64,000 nt of DNA from Methylophilus methylotrophus DSM 46235 = ATCC 53528 (GTDB taxonomy: Bacteria; Pseudomonadota; Gammaproteobacteria; Burkholderiales; Methylophilaceae): assembly GCF_000378225.1 (NCBI RefSeq), contig NZ_KB905141.1, positions 62,001 through 126,000 on the forward strand. Direction: 5' to 3'. Position numbers and translations under genes: made by a program. How positions within the stretch are numbered: position 1 is the first letter of the stretch; every line of letters starts with the position of its first letter. This document shows, piece after piece, positions 37,772 through 46,762 of this stretch. Under the pieces are notes generated by a model. It saw only the letters and a list, made by a program, of their open reading frames with translations. It ran no database searches and was not told the DNA's origin.

Positions 37772-38542
37772 TTACCACACTTTCCAAGGTGCTTCGCCGC
37801 TGGCCCATAAAGACTCAAGTAGTGTTTTTTCTCGCAGGGTGTCCATGGGTTGCCAGAATCCTTCATGCTCATAAGCCATCAGCTGACCTGTTTGAGCCAG
37901 ATGCATCAGAGGGGAACCTTCCCAGCTTGATTGGTCGTTTTCAATATAGTCAATACATTGTGGTGATAGTACAAAAAAGCCCCCATTGATCCAACCGCCA
38001 TCACCTTTAGGTTTCTCGGCAAAGCCTGTGACCTGATTCTCGTTTAACTCGAGCGCACCGTATCTACCGGGTGGTTGAACACCTGTGACAGTTGCCAGTT
38101 TGCCATGTTGTTTGTGAAATTTAACCAGCTCGGTGATATTAACGTTTGACAAGCCATCCCCGTAAGTGAAACAGAACGCTTCTTCGTTTTTGATATATTC
38201 TGCGACGCGCTTAAGACGGCCACCGGTTAAAGTTTGCTCGCCAGTGTCCACTAGTGTGACTTTCCAGGGTTCTGCATTACGCTGATGCACTTGCATGCTG
38301 TTATTAGACATATCAAATGTCACATCTGACATGTGCAGAAAGTAATTGGCGAAATACTCTTTAATAACATAACCTTTGTACCCGCAGCAAATGATGAAAT
38401 CATTAATGCCGTAAGCTGAATACAGCTTCATGATATGCCATAGTATTGGCTTGCCACCGATTTCAATCATAGGCTTGGGCTTCAAGTGAGTTTCTTCACT
38501 GATGCGGGTACCTAATCCACCCGCTAAGATAACTGCTTTCAT
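37772..38542 (-). CDS. rfbF: Glucose-1-phosphate cytidylyltransferase
   Basis: 256 residues with the nucleotidyltransferase motif [20 protein letters not shown] and [20 protein letters not shown], then [14 protein letters not shown], all diagnostic of RfbF. Makes CDP-glucose from CTP and glucose-1-phosphate. Pairs with rfbG directly downstream. ATG start is 9 bp after the ColD-like stop. Confidence 0.95.
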
Positions 38543-38551
38543 AATTTGCCT

Positions 38552-39718
38552 TTACAATTCAGATAACGCCGTAATCGCTTCATCAATCTTATAATGATGG
38601 TTACCTATAAACAGGCCAAATTTGTCAATGTGCTCAGCATTTTTTAGCTGTCCGTGCACACTGGAGTCAAAATATTTGACGACTTCATTCTTGGCAAAGT
38701 TACCTGCCACAATTGGCCTGCACTCAAACCCCAGGTTATTGAGTTTTTCAATCAACCCTTTGCGTGTCAGTTCACTTTCAGGTCTTATAACCAGGCTAAA
38801 GCCGAACCAGCTACTCTCTCCGACTTCTTTCTGGATCATAATTTCAGGATGATTGGAAAGACTCCTTTGTAGTAGCTTGGCATTTTCTCTTCTGGCCTTG
38901 ACCAGGCGGGGTAATTTTTCAATTTGGTGGATACCGATGGCACCTGAAAGTTCGAGGGGGCGTAGATTAAAGCCCGGTAGTACAAAACGGAATGACTCTT
39001 CAAAAGGATCGTCACTCTTTTCACCACATACCAGATTATGTTTAGGCAAGTTGCGGGTCCAGCCGTGTGCGCGAAGCGAGAGCATTATTTGATAGAGCTC
39101 TTCATCATCCGTGACGACCAGTCCACCTTCCATGGTTGAAATGTGATGGCTGAAAAACGAGCTGTAAGTACCCATTACGCCAAATGTGCCGGCTTGTTTT
39201 CCTTCAAAAGTAGCGCCCAAGGACTCACAATTGTCCTCCAGTAATAAAATATTCTTGCCACTGATGAGTTGTTTTATACGCTGGAAATCATTTGGATTGC
39301 CCAGCAGGTTAACAGCCAAGATCGCTCGAGTATTTTCTGTAATGGCGCCTTCGAGTTGTTCGATGTCCAGATTGAGGGTTTCCAGATCAATATCAACAAA
39401 TTTAAGCTTGAGTCCGTACTGGTAAAGCGGGTAATAAGTTGTGCTCCATGAAACGGCAGGCACGATCACTTCATCACCGCGCTTAAGACTATGCGCGGGG
39501 TTTTTGCTGTAGAACAGGGCCGCAATCATGATCAGGTTGGCGGAAGAGCCTGAATTGACCATGATAGAATATTGGCTGCCGGTAAATTTGGCAAACTGTT
39601 CCTCAAATGCTTTGACCTGACTGCCCATGGTAAACATGCCACTGTCGATCACGCGGTGCATGGCGGCGATTTCCTTCTCATCCCAGGTGGTGGTGGCGAG
39701 AGGGTATTTAAAAGACAT
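38552..39718 (-). CDS. ColD-like PLP-dependent sugar 3-dehydratase (DegT family, His in place of Lys)
   Basis: 388 residues from the ATG at 39718, which overlaps the fcl-like stop by one base (TAATG); the frame is open to 39796 but the conserved part starts at MSFKYPLATTTWDEKEI. The PLP-lysine position holds His: SSFFSHHISTMEGG (His 191/192). Two family members have this: ColD (GDP-4-keto-6-deoxymannose 3-dehydratase, no Fe-S) and RfbH/E1 (CDP-sugar, [2Fe-2S] with four Cys). The RfbH Cys cluster is absent; RAHGWTRNLPKHN followed by FRFVLPGFNLRPLE resembles ColD. Position between gmd/fcl and rfbFG leaves the nucleotide open. Confidence 0.82.
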   Translation of the reverse strand: MSFKYPLATTTWDEKEIAAMHRVIDSGMFTMGSQVKAFEEQFAKFTGSQYSIMVNSGSSANLIMIAALFYSKNPAHSLKRGDEVIVPAVSWSTTYYPLYQYGLKLKFVDIDLETLNLDIEQLEGAITENTRAILAVNLLGNPNDFQRIKQLISGKNILLLEDNCESLGATFEGKQAGTFGVMGTYSSFFSHHISTMEGGLVVTDDEELYQIMLSLRAHGWTRNLPKHNLVCGEKSDDPFEESFRFVLPGFNLRPLELSGAIGIHQIEKLPRLVKARRENAKLLQRSLSNHPEIMIQKEVGESSWFGFSLVIRPESELTRKGLIEKLNNLGFECRPIVAGNFAKNEVVKYFDSSVHGQLKNAEHIDKFGLFIGNHHYKIDEAITALSEL

Positions 39719-40638
39719 TATTGCAATTCCTTCACATAATAATCGTAGGTGCGAGCGATGCCCTGTTTCAGCGAGTATCCCGGTTGCCAGCCCCATGCTA
39801 TTTGTTTATCGATATTGACCAGTTTGCGCGCCATGCCAACCGGTTTGCTCAGGTCATGGACAAACGCGCCTTGGAAGCCGATCACCTCGGCCGCTGCCTG
39901 ATAATATTCATTGATGGTGTAATCGTAGCCCAGGCCAACATTCATGGTTGCTGGTAATGTGCTGAAGCGACTGACGGCCATCACAATCAAATTGGCCAGA
40001 TCGCCTGCATACATGAACTCGCGTCTGGCCTCGCCACTGCCCCATATCTCGACATTTGCGTCACCCTGCGTTTTGGCCAAGTGAATTTTATGAATGATTG
40101 CCGGAATCAGATGTGACTGTTTGGGATCAAACTTGTCGTATCTGCCATAGAGATTGCATGGAATCAGCGTTTTGTATTGCAAGCCAGGCTGCTCGCGTTG
40201 TATGTACTCAGCCAGCCGTGCTGTTACAATCTTGGCCAGTGCATAGCCCTCGTTGGTCGGCTCCAGTTCACCAGTGAGCACCATGTCTTCTGACAGTGGC
40301 GCTTCATGGTTTCTCGGGTACATGCAGGAGCTGCCCAGATTCAGCACTTGTGAGACGCGGTGTTGCAGGCAGGCCATCAGCAGATTGCGGCCCATGTCGA
40401 GATTTTTCACCAGAAAGTTGACCGGTTCGCGCATGTTTGCCTGTATGCCACCCACCAATCCGGCAGCATGAATGACCAGGTCAGGCCGATAATCGGCAAT
40501 CACCTGGCTGGTTTGCGCGTAGTCCAGCAGATTCATTTTTTGACTGGAAGGTGCCAGCCATTCAAATGCGGTGTTTGCAAAGGCATCGATGATATTCTTG
40601 CCAACCAGCCCACTGCCGCCAGTAAGTAAAATACGCAT
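39718..40638 (-). CDS. GDP-L-fucose synthase (Fcl/WcaG) or GDP-L-colitose synthase (ColC)
   Basis: 306 residues. SDR with LLTGGSGLVGKNIID, LVGGIQANMREPVNFL, LGSSCMYPRNHEAPL and YALAKIVTARL, plus CNLYGRYDKFDPKQSHLIPA, a pattern typical of the Fcl family (3,5-epimerase/4-reductase acting on GDP-4-keto-6-deoxymannose). ColC proteins share this fold, and a ColD-like gene follows directly, so either L-fucose or L-colitose is possible. Seven bp after gmd. Confidence 0.85.
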   Translation of the reverse strand: MRILLTGGSGLVGKNIIDAFANTAFEWLAPSSQKMNLLDYAQTSQVIADYRPDLVIHAAGLVGGIQANMREPVNFLVKNLDMGRNLLMACLQHRVSQVLNLGSSCMYPRNHEAPLSEDMVLTGELEPTNEGYALAKIVTARLAEYIQREQPGLQYKTLIPCNLYGRYDKFDPKQSHLIPAIIHKIHLAKTQGDANVEIWGSGEARREFMYAGDLANLIVMAVSRFSTLPATMNVGLGYDYTINEYYQAAAEVIGFQGAFVHDLSKPVGMARKLVNIDKQIAWGWQPGYSLKQGIARTYDYYVKELQ

Positions 40639-40645
40639 GGGTCAG

Positions 40646-41734
40646 TTACTCGAAATAGTTTTGCACGACGTATCCGTGTTTTTTGACCAGTTCGTCACGC
40701 TCTGCAATCCGCAAGTCTTCACGCACCATTTCCAAGACCAGGCTTGCAAATGAAATCTTGGGTGTCCAGCCCAGTTTGTCTCTTGCTTTGGAGGCGTCGC
40801 CCAGCAAGGTTTCAACTTCAGTTGGACGGAAATAACGTGGATCGACCTGAACGATACATTTGCCGCTGTCATCGTAGCCTTTTTCGTCTACGCCGTTGCC
40901 CTGCCATTGAATGTGCATGTCGAGTTCGTTCGCAGCCGCATTGACAAAATCACGCACACTATACTGCACGCCGGTTGCAATCACGAAGTCTTCAGGGGCG
41001 GCCTGTTGCAGCATCAGCCATTGCATTTCGACATAGTCCTTGGCGTGGCCCCAGTCGCGTTTTGCATCCAGATTGCCCAGATACAGGCAGTCCTGTAAGC
41101 CTAGCTTGATTCTTGCCAGTGCGCGCGTTATTTTTCTGGTGACGAATGTTTCGCCTCGGATGGGGCTTTCATGGTTGAACAAAATGCCATTGCAGGCATA
41201 AATGCCATATGCCTCACGATAGTTAACAGTAATCCAGTAGGCATAGAGTTTGGCAACTGCATATGGGCTGCGCGGGTAGAACGGGGTGGTTTCTTTTTGC
41301 GGGACTTCCTGCACCAGACCATACAGCTCGGATGTGGATGCCTGATAAAAGCGGGTTTTCTTGGTCAGCCCAAGAATGCGGATGGCTTCCAGTATGCGCA
41401 AAGCACCGAGTGCATCAGAGTTGGCGGTATATTCTGGTTCCTCAAACGATACTGCAACATGGCTTTGTGCGGCCAGATTGTAAATTTCGTCTGGTTGTAC
41501 TTTCTGGATAATGTGGGTCAGGCTCGAAGAGTCTGTCATGTCGCCATGGTGCAAGAAAAACGGCTTGCCCTCAGCATGCGGATCGTGAAACAGATGGTCC
41601 ACGCGGGCGGTATTAAACAACGATGAGCGTCTTTTGATGCCATGCACAATATAGCCTTTGTTCAATAAGAGCTCTGCCAGATATGCACCATCTTGGCCAG
41701 TGATACCTGTGATTAAAGCGACTTTTTGTGACAT
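40646..41734 (-). CDS. gmd: GDP-mannose 4,6-dehydratase
   Basis: 362 residues with [64 protein letters not shown] and [17 protein letters not shown], all Gmd signatures. Converts GDP-mannose to GDP-4-keto-6-deoxymannose, feeding the next two genes. First gene of the leftward operon, 254 bp from the gene upstream; that space holds an ops-like element and a possible -10 (TATAAT on the minus strand at 41765-41770). Confidence 0.97.
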
Positions 41735-41796
41735 GATTAAATTGCTGAGTTAAAAAGTGCACGGATTATAACATGCGCATATCTTGGCTTGCCCGT

Positions 41797-41804
41797 CTAC
41801 CGCC
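41797..41804 (-). promoter_or_regulatory. ops-like element (GGCGGTAG) before the glycan operon
   Basis: GGCGGTAG on the minus strand, 63 bp before the gmd ATG. This 8-mer is the core of the ops/JUMPstart site at which RfaH loads onto RNA polymerase to let it read long polysaccharide operons. It heads a leftward run of about 20 kb, where such a site is expected. The rest of the JUMPstart sequence is not recognisable, and a TATAAT lies downstream of it, which would leave ops untranscribed if that box were the only promoter. Confidence 0.45.
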
Positions 41805-41957
41805 ATTGCTTTTTTGACATCCTATTAGTCGGCGTCGCCTGAATTTAGTCATCTTGCTTTTCTCTTTGTAAGATAAGTCATTGGTATAGCCCGTTAAACG
41901 AATTTACTATGTGCTTTATGGCGTTTCTAGCTATGAGGTATCTTGAAGGATGCCTTA

Positions 41958-41977
41958 GTAGATAAGGTTTTATCTAC
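41958..41977. repeat. Inverted repeat after the GT-C-like gene
   Basis: GTAGATAA, four bases, TTATCTAC: 8-bp perfect arms 11 bp past the stop of the 520-residue membrane gene. No T-run follows, so as a terminator it is weak at best. It begins the 254-bp leader region of the gmd operon. Confidence 0.4.
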
Positions 41978-41988
41978 CAATCATCGAA

Positions 41989-43551
41989 TTACTCCACTAC
42001 TTTTTTAAAAACTAAAATGCGTTTCTTATTTTTATGGCCGTAAAATGTTTTATCTAGTTTAAATTGGCTTAAATGGGTTGCTAGATAGTGTTCTTTAGAT
42101 TGATTTTCTGGCGTTGCATCGAGATGAATCACGAGGTGGTTGAATTGATTGATACGGCCATCTTGAATACGAGTTTGTATATACTCCCATTCATCATAGT
42201 ATCTGCCTTCGTAAGGTGCATCAGCATAAAAACGTTGCCTGGGCGAGGAGTAAAGAACACTTTCGTTAGGTTTTATTTTTTGTTTTACATAACGAACAGC
42301 ATCAATTTCAAAATAGTAGCTCTGTTTTTTGGGAGCAACACTACCTATAAAGCCGATGACTATTAAGCCTGTGACAAAAACCAGTAGCGATTTTGATTTC
42401 TTGCTTAATTTGCAAGCGCTGAGTTGGTTGAGTAATGCAGAAAGTGCAAAACTGCCTAAAGTGATGAGTGCAATGCCAAATAAGCCCACATACCTGCCGG
42501 AAAGCAGGTTAACCTTAAATGCGATAAGGCAACCTGTTGCCCATGACAGCAACATACACCATAAGATAAACCGAGTAGTAATTGGCTCGCAGACTGATTT
42601 AATGCGGTTGAATTGCGTGACTGATAACAGTGTCGGTGCCCAGCCTGCAACACTTAAACACTTGATGGTCACTATTGCAAGATAGGCTAACAAAAAAGTA
42701 AACCAGGCATATTCTTTGAACGGCTCACCGATGACATCATTGCGCATGATTTCTACGCGGTGTGATAAATTTTGTGAAAAATTAGATTGAATATCACTCA
42801 ATCCAGTAAACAGCTCTTTCATGCGCCCTAGGTTATCCAGGCTTTCACCTTTGGCAATCAGCATAGTTGCCAATATGAATGCTCCCAAAAGCACTAACGC
42901 ATAAGGCATTAACCTTTGGCACCATGTGCGGGCTTGCGTTGTAAAACATAAACCGAATAGAGGCAATGCCAATAATTGGACTGCACCTTCAATCCGAAAC
43001 AACAAAGCTATCAATGCAAAGCCTTGCCAATAAAACGCATGTGCAAGTTTGGCTTTTTGATAATATAAAACTAGAAAATTGACTGCCCATAACATAGTGG
43101 TCCAATAGCCTAGATCTCGGCTGACCATGGGCATGATGTCGCCAACCATGTAGCGTGCTCCCAGGAGCAAACATACTGCCAAATATTGCTCGCGCCAGCT
43201 ACCGCCCGCAATTTGCACCAACCGCATCAGTCCCCCCACTAGGCCTACAAAAAAGCCGACAATCAATAGATTGGCAGACGCATGTAAACCCAAGCCTGTT
43301 ATTTTGTGCACCAAGGCGATCAGGGCAGGATAGAAGCCCCAACTAAACTTTTCTACATCATAAGCGGCTTGAAAATCACCATTTGCAATATGCTTGGCCA
43401 TTTCAAAATATAGAATCGAGTCATTGGTGATCCATCCATGCTGGATATTAATAACCCAGATTGCAAAAATGCTCATTGACGTTAGTAATATAGCGTTTTT
43501 ATAAAAGTCACTTAGTTTTGTCAGATGGTGGTACAGGCTTTTGATGTTCAT
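41989..43551 (-). CDS. Polytopic membrane protein, GT-C glycosyltransferase-like
   Basis: 520 residues with about 10 to 12 hydrophobic segments and a soluble C-terminal domain of about 100 residues. After the first membrane span comes ITNDSILYFEMAKHIANGDF, an acidic first-loop pattern seen in GT-C enzymes that use polyprenyl-phosphate sugars (PMT/ArnT-like). I do not recognise a specific family. Next to the glycan operon and in the same direction but separated by 254 bp; it could add a sugar in the periplasm. No Wzy or O-antigen ligase signature is evident. Confidence 0.55.
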   Translation of the reverse strand: MNIKSLYHHLTKLSDFYKNAILLTSMSIFAIWVINIQHGWITNDSILYFEMAKHIANGDFQAAYDVEKFSWGFYPALIALVHKITGLGLHASANLLIVGFFVGLVGGLMRLVQIAGGSWREQYLAVCLLLGARYMVGDIMPMVSRDLGYWTTMLWAVNFLVLYYQKAKLAHAFYWQGFALIALLFRIEGAVQLLALPLFGLCFTTQARTWCQRLMPYALVLLGAFILATMLIAKGESLDNLGRMKELFTGLSDIQSNFSQNLSHRVEIMRNDVIGEPFKEYAWFTFLLAYLAIVTIKCLSVAGWAPTLLSVTQFNRIKSVCEPITTRFILWCMLLSWATGCLIAFKVNLLSGRYVGLFGIALITLGSFALSALLNQLSACKLSKKSKSLLVFVTGLIVIGFIGSVAPKKQSYYFEIDAVRYVKQKIKPNESVLYSSPRQRFYADAPYEGRYYDEWEYIQTRIQDGRINQFNHLVIHLDATPENQSKEHYLATHLSQFKLDKTFYGHKNKKRILVFKKVVE

Positions 43552-43690
43552 GCTTCGTTTTTAGTAAAAAATATGCAATGAAATTTAATTTTGGACTTTT
43601 ATCAGAGAAGAATTGCAGTTTACTGCGCTTTTGGTATTTGCAGTAGCTTATCCCTGCGTGATGATTTGAACATCAAAAAATAACCACCAG

Positions 43691-43852
43691 ACAGTGATCT
43701 GCCTTGCATCTATTGCTTAGCTGCCAGCATGGCCTTGATATTCGCCATTTTGCTTTTGCCATAGTCCTTGCTTAATACCTGATCCGGCCCATTAAACGGG
43801 TTGCCAAAATGCTTCACATCATCTTTCGGTAGCTGAGCAATAAATCGGCTGA
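43691..43852 (-). pseudogene. Remnant of a second rep 3' end (direct repeat copy A)
   Basis: 162 bp aligning without gaps to 44719-44880, with about 17 mismatches. On the minus strand it encodes the last 46 or so residues of Rep (LPKDDVKHFGNPFNGPD..., ending LAAKQ and stop) with mostly silent changes. The frame is not open further into a helicase. It fills most of the otherwise empty 335-bp stretch between the GT-C-like gene and mntA; I see nothing else in that stretch. Confidence 0.9.
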
Positions 43853-43886
43853 GTTGAAGGCTTATATTTTTGCTTTATGCGTCTAT

Positions 43887-44189
43887 TTATTGATTTAAAA
43901 AACGAATGCCGAATTGCTCTATGTGCGCAATTAGAGCAGGGTTATCAATGTGATGTTTGAGAGATAAATCTACTTTCCACGGTAGGTATAGGTCATCTAT
44001 TTTTCTTTCAATCAGGTGCAAATCTTTAAGCTTTAATGCTTCAGCTTCTATACATAAATCAATGTCAGAGGCTGGCTTTTCTCTACCTAGTGCTCTGGAA
44101 CCATATAGCCAGACACTCTTGATGCGCGCATCTTGACTAAACACGTCATTCAGTTTGTGTATCGCGGTATCGGGTAGTCCAAATATCAT
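43887..44189 (-). CDS. MntA-type nucleotidyltransferase antitoxin
   Basis: 100 residues, minimal nucleotidyltransferase fold with the motif GSRALGREKPASDIDL (GS-X10-DXD, near residue 30) and a further Asp in KVDLSL. In MNT/HEPN pairs MntA inactivates HepT by adding AMP to a Tyr next to the RNase motif. It follows the HEPN gene by 10 bp in one operon. The pair sits between two copies of the rep 3' end. Confidence 0.88.
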   Translation of the reverse strand: MIFGLPDTAIHKLNDVFSQDARIKSVWLYGSRALGREKPASDIDLCIEAEALKLKDLHLIERKIDDLYLPWKVDLSLKHHIDNPALIAHIEQFGIRFLNQ

Positions 44190-44199
44190 GACTGATTTG

Positions 44200-44631
44200 C
44201 TATTCTAAATTTGACTGTAACTTTTTGAGTGTATGCATGAGCGCTACAAATAAAGCATAGTAACTGTTTTGTATCGCCTCAATGATTTCTTCCGCAACAG
44301 CTTTGTTATAAGTATGCGATGTTTTGTTGCGACTTTGTATCATCGCCATCCATCCTTCACCATCTAGAATCAGCCCTTTACTAAAAGCTTCACGCGTTGC
44401 ATCTCGTGAGCCTGTGATGTTTTGTGTACCTTGGTAATCAAAATAGTCTTTTAAGACGTTCCAAGCTAACTCATGCGTAAATTCAAATGCTTGAATTAAA
44501 CCTTGCTTTTCCAGGTCAGATAACGCTCTTTCTTTACTCAAATCGATAGCGGCGGTGAGGCTTTCAAGCGCTTTTTCATAGTTGTTTAATCGCTGCACCC
44601 AGCGTAAATTTTGAGTGTTATGCTCTGTCAT
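44200..44631 (-). CDS. HepT-type HEPN RNase toxin (HI0074 family)
   Basis: 143 residues, all-helical HEPN protein. Shows the catalytic RX4HXY motif in SRNKTSHTYN (near residue 103), including the Tyr that MntA AMPylates, and the family phrase IQAFEFTHELAWNVLKDYF. Older annotations call this family nucleotidyltransferase substrate-binding proteins. HepT cuts RNA (tRNA ends in the studied cases) when not modified. Toxin gene comes first, antitoxin second, as usual for this class. Confidence 0.88.
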   Translation of the reverse strand: MTEHNTQNLRWVQRLNNYEKALESLTAAIDLSKERALSDLEKQGLIQAFEFTHELAWNVLKDYFDYQGTQNITGSRDATREAFSKGLILDGEGWMAMIQSRNKTSHTYNKAVAEEIIEAIQNSYYALFVALMHTLKKLQSNLE

Positions 44632-44718
44632 TTATTGAACCCCAATCATCATGGCTACATAGCATTTTTTGTGCGGAAAATTTGCAATAAAATTGCGTGT
44701 TTGAAGGAATATTAACAG

Positions 44719-44880
44719 ACAGGGATTGGTCTTGCATCTATTGCTTGGCCGCCAGCATTGCCTTGATATTCGCCATCTTGCTTTTGCCATAGTCTTTGCT
44801 CAATACCTGATCCGGCCCATTAAACGGGTTGCCAAAGTGCTTGACATCATCTTTCGGTAATTCAGTAATAAATCGGCTGG
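44719..44880 (-). repeat. Direct repeat copy B (3' end of intact rep)
   Basis: The genuine 3' end of rep plus 19 bp past its stop, matched by copy A at 43691-43852 (offset exactly 1028 bp, no gaps). Together they bracket the MntA/HepT pair. Confidence 0.9.
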
Positions 44881-46762
44881 GCTCGCAGGCTTGCATTTCT
44901 CCCGCGCGCTTGCGTTTTTTGCACCAGGTAATGTTGAGTGATTTTTGGGCACGGGTAATGCCTACATACATGAGGCGGCGCTCTTCTTCGATCTGGTCGC
45001 TGTCTATAGAGTTTGTATGCGGAAGAATACCTTCTTCGCAGCCGATTAAAAAGACATGGCCGTACTCCAGGCCTTTGGAGGCGTGCAGGGTGGAGAGTTT
45101 GACCGCGTCGGGTTCGCCATCTTCACGGCCTTCTAGCATGGTGATGAGGGAAACCAGTTGTGTGAGTTCGAGCAGGTTTTTGCCATCAGACTCATTGCCA
45201 TATTCGGTTGAGGCTTCGCCTTTTTTGCTGAGCCAGGCGACAAATTCCTGAACGTTGCCCCAGCGCGTTTCTGCGGATCGGGCTTCTTCGCCATCGTAGA
45301 GATAGCTTTCATATTGAATGGCCGCTATCAGGTCGCCGAGCACTTCATTGGCGGGATCTTTGACGGCGCGGGCTTGCAGGGTTTGGATGTAGCGGCAGAA
45401 GGTGAGCAGGTCATCGAGTTGCTTGGCACCGATTTCGTGTTGAAAGCCACCTTCAAATGCTGCGGCGAACAGCGACATTTTGTGTGCGCTGGCATATTCG
45501 CCCAGCCGTTCCAGGGTGGTATTGCCTATGCCTTTTTTTGGCGTTGTGGCGGCGCGGATAAAGGCCGGATCATCGTCTTCGTTGGCGATTAGGCGTAAAT
45601 AGCTGGTGATGTCTTTAATCTCAGCCTTGTCAAAAAAAGATTGCCCGCCGGAAATAGTGTAGGGGATTTTGTGGTTACGCAAAAACTGCTCGATGATGCG
45701 TGCCTGGTGATTGCTGCGGTAGAGGATCGCATAGTCTTTATACGTTGTACGATGCTCGAATTTGTGCGCCTGCAGTTTCATCACTACGGTTTCGGCTTCG
45801 TGTTCTTCACTTTGCGTCGCGGTCACATGAATCAGATCACCTGTGCCGTGCTCGCTCCAAAGTTTTTTCTCAAACAGTTTTGGGTTGTTGGCGATCACGT
45901 GGTTGGCAGCACGCAGAATACGCACCGTTGACCGGTAGTTTTGCTCCAGTTTGATCACTTTAAGCTTGGAGAAGTCCACAGTTAATTGACGCAGGTTTTC
46001 CACGTCGGCACCGCGCCAGCCGTAAATGGCCTGGTCGTCGTCGCCCACAGCAGTGAACTGGCCTCGCAAGCCAGTGAGTTGTTTAATCAGCCTGTACTGG
46101 CAGGCATTGGTATCCTGGTACTCATCAATCAGCAGGTAATGCAGTTTGCGCTGCCATCTGTCTAGCATGTCGCTGTGCTGATCAAACAGTTCGACTGGGA
46201 CTTTGATCAGGTCATCAAAATCCACCGCCTGGTAGGCACGCAGAGTTTGCTGGTATAGCTGGTAAACGCGGGCGGCGGCATGCGTGAGTTCTTCATCCGC
46301 CTGCGATTTGGCTTGATCCGGGTTCACAAACGCATTTTTCCAGCTGGAGATTTGCCATTGCGTTTTGCGCAACAGTTGTTTGTCTGTGGTGGCCAAGATA
46401 TCGCTGAGGATTTTAAAGCTGTCCGAGGCATCAAGAATAGAGAACTGAGGTTTGTAACCGAGCAGGGCGGCTTCTTGGCGCAGGATTTGCAGGCCTAGGG
46501 AGTGAAAGGTGGTCACTGTCAGGCCTTTGCCACTTTTACCCTCAAGCAGCGGTGTCACACGTTCCTGCATTTCACGGGCGGCCTTATTGGTAAAGGTAAT
46601 CGCTGCGATCTGGCTGGCTTTATAACCGGCCTGGTTAATCAGGTAGGCAATTTTTTGCGTAATCACCCGCGTTTTACCACTACCGGCGCCAGCCAATACG
46701 AGTAAAGGTCCATCTAGGTAATGGATGGCTTCGCGTTGCGGAGGATTCAGAAGATGCTGCAT
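44738..46762 (-). CDS. rep: ATP-dependent DNA helicase Rep
   Basis: 674 residues, SF1A (UvrD/Rep) helicase. Motif I AGAGSGKTRVIT (near residue 25), motif Ia ITFTNKAAREM, motif II IDEYQDTN, motif III AVGDDDQAIYGWRGA, motif IV EQNYRS, motif V TLHASKGLEYGHVFLIG, motif VI EERRLMYVGITRAQ. Length fits Rep (673 in E. coli), shorter than UvrD. Unwinds 3'-5' and clears proteins ahead of replication forks. Intact despite the neighbouring duplication of its 3' end. Confidence 0.95.
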   Translation of the reverse strand: MQHLLNPPQREAIHYLDGPLLVLAGAGSGKTRVITQKIAYLINQAGYKASQIAAITFTNKAAREMQERVTPLLEGKSGKGLTVTTFHSLGLQILRQEAALLGYKPQFSILDASDSFKILSDILATTDKQLLRKTQWQISSWKNAFVNPDQAKSQADEELTHAAARVYQLYQQTLRAYQAVDFDDLIKVPVELFDQHSDMLDRWQRKLHYLLIDEYQDTNACQYRLIKQLTGLRGQFTAVGDDDQAIYGWRGADVENLRQLTVDFSKLKVIKLEQNYRSTVRILRAANHVIANNPKLFEKKLWSEHGTGDLIHVTATQSEEHEAETVVMKLQAHKFEHRTTYKDYAILYRSNHQARIIEQFLRNHKIPYTISGGQSFFDKAEIKDITSYLRLIANEDDDPAFIRAATTPKKGIGNTTLERLGEYASAHKMSLFAAAFEGGFQHEIGAKQLDDLLTFCRYIQTLQARAVKDPANEVLGDLIAAIQYESYLYDGEEARSAETRWGNVQEFVAWLSKKGEASTEYGNESDGKNLLELTQLVSLITMLEGREDGEPDAVKLSTLHASKGLEYGHVFLIGCEEGILPHTNSIDSDQIEEERRLMYVGITRAQKSLNITWCKKRKRAGEMQACEPSRFITELPKDDVKHFGNPFNGPDQVLSKDYGKSKMANIKAMLAAKQ

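Follow-up and report, generated by a model that had tools for sequence, protein, structure and literature searches.

Toxin–antitoxin loci between duplicated rep gene ends suggest a route of integrase-free spread in the Methylophilaceae

The insertion of restriction–modification (RM) systems is reported to leave target duplications that are variable and long, at about 100 bp (PMC3874152, PMC3031569), and Nobusato et al. 2000 is cited for this behavior in PMC2654758 and PMC3874152. The latter, a review, treats both RM and toxin–antitoxin (TA) systems and describes long target duplication for RM systems. We found no description of long target duplication for TA systems in a literature survey based on titles and the openings of abstracts, in which subscription journals were thinly covered. 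To our knowledge, the movement of chromosomal TA loci that show no mobility gene is an open question. A 2010 NAR paper (author Furuta), cited in PMC3874152, reportedly describes RM insertion with long target duplication. Gene 3′ ends (tRNA, tmRNA) are classic targets of integrase elements. In Escherichia coli, according to the abstract of PMC3240628, linear DNA circularizes and integrates by a recA-dependent single crossover, and homology-facilitated illegitimate recombination during conjugation is very rare (3e-10 per recipient). Alternative pairing in transformation yields a duplication, as described in PMC3784515.

Here we analyze a TA locus beside rep in the window, that is, the whole 64,000-nt stretch of Methylophilus methylotrophus DNA under study. 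Its insertion is one case of a pattern that recurs in the family and beyond. It resembles the RM insertions in being a small, presumably addictive unit that holds no recombinase, in being flanked by direct repeats that are long (about 100 bp) and variable, and in having the intact target on one side, part of it repeated directly on the other, and a single copy in relatives. It differs from them in its cargo, which is of the TA kind and of three types, in that one gene end has been hit repeatedly within one family, and in that, for three of the five rep insertions, the copies resemble orthologues of separate lineages. TA cargo, a reused gene end and, in three of five pairs, a spare end apparently derived from elsewhere are what is new beyond the RM case. 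With the processes in the abstract of PMC3240628 the locus shares one-sided homology and the lack of an integrase, and a circle plus one crossover duplicates the shared segment; those processes, by contrast, concern laboratory plasmids in E. coli, and natural TA loci are absent from that abstract.

The rep locus of the window and its HEPN–MNT pair

An earlier note, written from the sequence letters, had described an MntA/HepT pair beside rep, bracketed by a gap-free 162-bp repeat of the rep end at about 90% identity and a spacing of 1028 bp. Our analysis bears out this description: the direct repeat (43688-43851 and 44716-44879) runs for 164 nt without a gap at 90% identity and with the same spacing, it extends to 183 bp at 88.0% identity (E 1e-62) when one 1-bp gap is admitted, and the genes between the copies encode HEPN and MNT proteins of the HepT/MntA-like kind (Table 1). 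The protein sequence of copy A is 95.7% identical to that of the rep end over 46 aa, and a 1-bp deletion and replacement changes cluster in its first codons. The host helicase was left intact at its full length of 674 aa, as the note had held. The Rep protein scored 914.6 bits against TIGR01074, whose cut-off is 951.45, and matched the UvrD domains; an orthologue of at least 76% identity is present in 21 of the 22 genus genomes, the window's own included, and G018 has a 36% relative alone. Chance and an assembly accident of one genome were rejected as explanations of the repeat, given its E value and the occurrence of the same layout in two other genomes.

Table 1. Features at the rep locus, in window coordinates
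Feature	Position	Strand	Remarks
rep, DNA helicase Rep	44738..46762	(-)	intact, 674 aa; ORF and profile matches
Repeat copy B	44716..44898	(-)	last 160 nt of rep plus 22 nt past the stop
Spacer after rep	44632..44715	(-)	between copy B and the HepT-like gene
HepT-like HEPN toxin gene (predicted)	44200..44631	(-)	143 aa; PF08780, E 1e-44
MntA-like nucleotidyltransferase (MNT) antitoxin gene (predicted)	43887..44189	(-)	100 aa; PF18765/PF01909
Repeat copy A	43688..43869	(-)	extra rep 3′ end, 5′-truncated, with its own stop codon, directly behind MntA
Genes past copy A	37772..43551	(-)	surface-polysaccharide type, judged by eye

The note had also remarked on the absence of a visible integrase. No integrase-sized ORF was found between the rep repeats of the window, where the HepT and MntA ORFs are the sole two of 80 aa or more, and neither a transposase-sized ORF nor terminal inverted repeats were found at the ends of the unit. 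The sole inverted pair spanning it (18 nt, 83%) has its arms within copy A and within rep, not at the unit's ends.

The HEPN and MNT genes are adjacent, with ORFs 10 bp apart. The HEPN protein passed the cut-off of TIGR01987 (HI0074 family; 100.3 bits against 55.8), whereas the NCBIfam type VII equivalogs HepT NF047751 and MntA NF047752 gave 23.2 and 37.3 bits, below their cut-offs of 60 each, so that HepT/MntA-like is the accurate name. The best solved relatives are PDB 8xdj, named 'HEPN toxin', for the HEPN protein (E 1.6e-53) and the chain 'MNT' of PDB 8xeh for the MNT protein (E 2.1e-27). The pair thus shares with the described HEPN–MNT systems (the HI0074/HI0073 group, PDB 8xdj and 8xeh, and type VII HepT/MntA) its two protein families and their adjacent arrangement, and departs from them in falling short of the type VII cut-offs. 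The catalytic motifs of these families are R-x4-H in HEPN and GSR-x9-DxD in MNT proteins. In the HEPN protein, R101 and H106 are invariant across six aligned relatives, and the MntA ORF shows, by eye, GSR, nine residues and DID. Comparison of the window's genome with a second carrier (G014) indicates purifying selection on both genes (HepT, dN 0.003 and dS 0.31; MntA, dN 0.022 and dS 0.28).

On the far side of copy A, the closest ORF (41989-43551) is matched by neither Pfam nor NCBIfam. Judged by eye, rep borders a polysaccharide-type cluster in the genus, with a gene content that varies among many members. The region 37772-43551 and its counterparts in relatives are possibly a recombination hotspot.

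Rep-end duplications in the genus and the family

The genus sample comprised 22 genomes (G000 being the window's own), 20 of which have a readable rep 3′ end. In 17 of these 20 the rep end is single and no HepT-MntA pair adjoins it, so that the empty sites predicted by the earlier note exist. The pair and a second rep end occur together in three genomes: G000, a Methylophilus sp. MAG (G014, locus L196) and Methylophilus aquaticus (G001, locus L197; Methylophilaceae). The second rep end starts at the identical rep position in all three, just behind MntA, and because of this shared right-hand junction they probably descend from one insertion. A single ancestral insertion in the genus, cleanly lost from most species by recombination between the rep ends and followed by exchange of the TA block among carriers, would account for the common junction, and direct repeats do permit clean loss. 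We nevertheless regard this scenario as distinctly unlikely. The carriers are not sisters: G009, the nearest relative of G000 with a rep core at 91.1%, carries one rep end and lacks the pair, and the same holds for the nearest relatives of G014 (87-88%). In addition, between G000 and G014 the dS values of HepT and MntA given above lie far below that of the rep core (1.10), and the HipBA and VapBC cases of other genera, described below, are left unexplained.

When G000 and G014 were compared in 50-nt windows, identity was about 80-86% in the rep end, rose past the rep stop to 88-98% and fell in copy A to 78-88%. The block of high identity is made up of the spacer after rep and the TA genes, whereas the rep ends that flank it are about 81-83% identical. 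The low dS of HepT and MntA relative to rep, combined with the step in identity at the rep stop, strongly indicates that the two genes were transferred between species; the pair very probably crossed as a block whose edges match the rep ends.

Three genus members deserve description. M. aquaticus has two different tandem HEPN–MNT pairs followed by a decayed rep end (L043, about 58-1641 past the rep stop); one pair has a PF01934 HepT and stands in front, and the other is of the window's type. In G005 the rep end is single and adjoined by a HipA-like gene encoding a lone HipA_C protein. In G013 rep is broken and has one end, and a more distant HepT-MntA pair lies about 12 kb off, with no rep end beside it.

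Scanning 187 genomes of the family gave 128 with a rep-end match; the rep contexts of 122 were read directly, and the six others were judged by the match scan alone. A second rep end lies close by in five genomes of three genera (G000, G014, G001, G164 and G058). The duplication is therefore present in 5 of the 122 contexts, and all five enclose a TA locus: HepT-MntA in the three Methylophilus genomes, a HipBA-like locus in G164 and a VapBC-like locus in G058. Cargo of other kinds between rep-end duplicates, which the earlier note had proposed to look for, was thus found. In G164 the rep ends (225 bp, 93%) enclose, on the opposite strand, a HipA gene together with an HTH gene, and in G058 the insert holds a MazE/AbrB-like gene and a PIN gene. 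The genus, G164 and G058 differ in the rep position at which the extra copy starts (-160, -234 and -154, respectively). The G164 insert also contains a stretch that resembles, by eye, a broken LysR-type gene.

By contrast, a TA or HipA-like gene adjoins rep in 3 of the 117 non-duplicated contexts (VapBC in G144 and G166, HipA_C in G005), a count that may be too low since TA genes in these contexts were recognized through ORF clusters and selected Pfam scans of 280 ORFs, not through a full scan. The association of TA loci with the duplication has a Fisher p of 2.7e-7, or of 7e-5 if the three Methylophilus cases are counted once. Downstream DNA was shorter than 500 bp in 2 of the 122 contexts, than 1 kb in 4 and than 3.1 kb in 10, so that a distant second rep end could be missed there. 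One VapC subfamily has four members of at least 75% identity among the 187 genomes of the family, and three of these (G058, G144 and G166), each from a different genus, adjoin the end of rep. G144 and G166 have VapBC adjoining rep with no detectable second rep end, and among these three G058 alone has one.

Outside the family, no rep-end duplication was found in a drawn sample of 399 genomes of the order, 207 of which had a rep-end match with a profile tuned to the family; a second, weak match in three non-family genomes lies 77 kb off or on another contig. In the plasmid collection the locus was matched in its rep part only (3 records). Relatives of HepT with less than 60% identity occur on 128 plasmid and 4 phage records.

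Copies or orthologues: the two rep ends compared

The earlier note had stated that the differences between the two rep ends are mostly silent, and had taken the extra copy for the remnant of a rep that once functioned in another strain or species. We compared silent and replacement differences with a simple free-decay null of our own devising, under which replacements should dominate if the extra copy decayed freely, and ran nine comparisons. Over the whole overlap, the silent : replacement numbers were 15 : 3 in G164 (p 3e-5), 19 : 12 in G014 (p 5e-4) and 27.7 : 21.3 in G058 (p 7e-4). In the BLAST-aligned part they were 13 : 2, 16 : 5 and 25.7 : 18.3, respectively. The value of pS between the rep ends is high in G014 (0.65) and in G058 (0.90). 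These comparisons strongly indicate that the two rep ends of G014, G164 and G058 diverged under selection at the protein level. Counted as silent : replacement codons, junction codons included, the numbers were 9 : 9 in G000, 14 : 11 in G014, 7 : 23 in G001, 13 : 4 in G164 and 21 : 15 in G058.

The window pair gave a different picture, with 12 silent and 13 replacement differences over 53 codons (p 0.066) or 12 and 12 over 51 codons (p 0.053). Its last 40 codons show 9 silent and 0 replacement differences (p 3e-5), in a segment that was picked after inspection of the alignment. Thus, the statement that the differences are mostly silent applies to this post hoc segment and fails for the 53 codons as a whole; likewise, descent from another functional rep agrees with the selection-marked divergence in G014, G164 and G058, whereas the window pair as a whole is borderline and does not reject free decay. 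In G001, 14.5 silent and 23.5 replacement differences (p 0.35) fit free decay.

These results bear on the possibility that an unknown process copied the resident rep end in place upon insertion, as a long target duplication, and that the extra copy then decayed. The same outward anatomy is reported for RM systems, with variable duplications of about 100 bp, in PMC3874152 and PMC3031569. The window pair taken as a whole and the freely decayed look of the G001 copy are both compatible with such a process, and copy A of the window is nearer to its own genome's rep end (89%) than to any other compared, that of G001 being next (86%). In-place duplication followed by free decay is disfavored, however, for G164, G014 and G058, by the excess of silent change over their overlaps and by the high pS in the latter two pairs, and the window pair speaks against it in its last 40 codons. 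All in all, we consider it an unlikely origin of these repeats, though the least unlikely of the alternatives to entry by recombination.

As to which end is the newcomer in the window, copy B has the same base as G009 at 20 of the 24 sites that differ from copy A, indicating that copy B is the resident and that copy A is either foreign or decayed. The expectation that copy A would match a specific donor was not borne out when it was compared with 18 other rep ends of the genus. In a mosaic test, the sites of G164 split 9 versus 6, and the pattern of G014 shifts along the repeat, which is not simply predicted by a single crossover. The proposal that a foreign rep end brought in the TA pair fits the foreign or decayed state of copy A. 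Overall, the earlier interpretation is partly supported.

HepT-MntA brackets at other sites and a proposed route

A GTDB scan with a HepT alignment covered the best 80 of 442 relatives, and further loci raised the number to 130, of which 120 were usable. The first scan, of the best 80 of the 442, found a repeat in 11 of 77 usable loci against 4 of 108 controls. In the enlarged scan, which includes these 80, a direct repeat spanned HepT in 14 of 120 loci against 12 of 231 shifted control points; two control matches, in L229 and L318, are located next to HepT and concern gene ends, so that the controls lack full independence. Overall, HepT loci show bracketing repeats, whatever their kind, only moderately more often than control points do. 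Three of the 14 positives are the Methylophilus loci, four involve a host gene boundary and seven are dispersed repeats or paralogues. We dropped L199 (an MntA paralogue), L285 (paralogous genes) and L255, L256, L270, L291 and L323 (dispersed or intergenic repeats) as gene-end cases, and L234 and L225 were positive in the first scan and not in the enlarged one.

The layout seen at rep recurs in a Lentisphaeria MAG (L200), where the last 176 bp of a gene for a 540-aa protein with no Pfam match reappear directly behind HepT-MntA at 85% identity, with 16.5 silent and 8.5 replacement differences (p 0.006). In L311 HepT-MntA is followed by a repeat of the end of an hsdM-type methylase gene (53 bp, 81%), and in L271 it is the start, not the end, of an hsdR-like gene that is repeated (82 bp, 84%). 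An Acinetobacter MAG (L229:603-4721) has an ABC transporter gene, a HEC-02-like defence pair, a duplicated transporter gene end and HepT-MntA; the transporter gene end recurs 1.6 kb on, between the two pairs, and the locus looks like stacked cassettes. Free decay was not rejected for L229 and L311. In L318 (1340-2500), a polA-like gene end, recognized by eye, and the start of the next gene form a tandem duplication near the HepT locus. At the other relatives of the TA pair within the family, no long brackets were found in 13 usable loci with 1.5-kb flanks, L189 having 24 bp alone; these 13 are what remains of 16 loci after removal of L052 (the window's own, in which the repeat was detected) and of L056 and L059 (short loci giving flank-setting artefacts), and three of them, rechecked with larger regions, showed no repeat. 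The window's genome also encodes, at another site (G000:C7:124177-125430), a HipA that shares 84% identity with the HipA enclosed in the G164 duplication, and no bracketing repeats were found within 1.5 kb of it.

In a Moraxellaceae MAG (L216:1030-3937), two tmRNA 3′ ends (97 bp, 96%) flank an insert of 2.5 kb that carries HepT-MntA and whose ORF list contains no integrase-sized ORF. This locus and the general preference of integrase elements for gene 3′ ends would be consistent with the rep insertions being degraded elements of that type, aimed at a gene end and since deprived of their integrase. Like such elements, the rep insertions show a restored gene end and a second, partial end on the far side. 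Unlike them, they have no integrase-sized ORF between the repeats, their repeats are long and differ between insertions in length and start, the copies have diverged by 7-20%, and the target encodes a protein. We therefore give a degraded integrase element very little credence at rep.

The layout recurs with three TA types in three genera, and most relatives have a single rep end. To explain these observations, we lean slightly toward a route in which a gene end and an addiction module entered together by homologous recombination without an integrase, addiction perhaps retaining the unstable repeat. HepT-MntA would have traveled on a short piece of DNA together with the 3′ end of rep from a related lineage, and ordinary homologous recombination would have taken place between the rep-end part and the resident rep. 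In the simplest form of this route, the ends of the piece, set by chance breakpoints, would be joined into a circle, which a single crossover would then integrate. Its steps have separate precedents in the crossover integration of circularized linear DNA and in homology-facilitated illegitimate recombination (PMC3240628), the rarity of the latter counting against the route, and in duplication by alternative pairing (PMC3784515). The product would be a full-length rep followed by the module and then by another rep end, truncated where the chance breakpoint fell, with no need for an integrase. The predictions of this route, namely an intact gene, a module, a truncated second end, no recombinase and variable starts, are those seen; chance breakpoints would give the different starts of the extra copy in the genus, G164 and G058. 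Long direct repeats would normally recombine, whereby the insert would be lost and a clean rep restored. A cell that lost the module would face the freed toxin and so be punished, and TA cargo, or perhaps defence cargo, would for this reason be what remains visible.

More tentatively, addiction modules might form a broad class of integrase-free cassettes, which would use a gene end as homology arm, move as RecA-dependent circles and be kept because their loss is punished; we regard this generalization as possible rather than probable. The recurrence of the layout suggests a route by which TA pairs may spread without an integrase. If true, it would offer a simple answer to how TA pairs spread, one that transformation experiments could test, and the cassettes would be findable in genomes by their gene-end scars.
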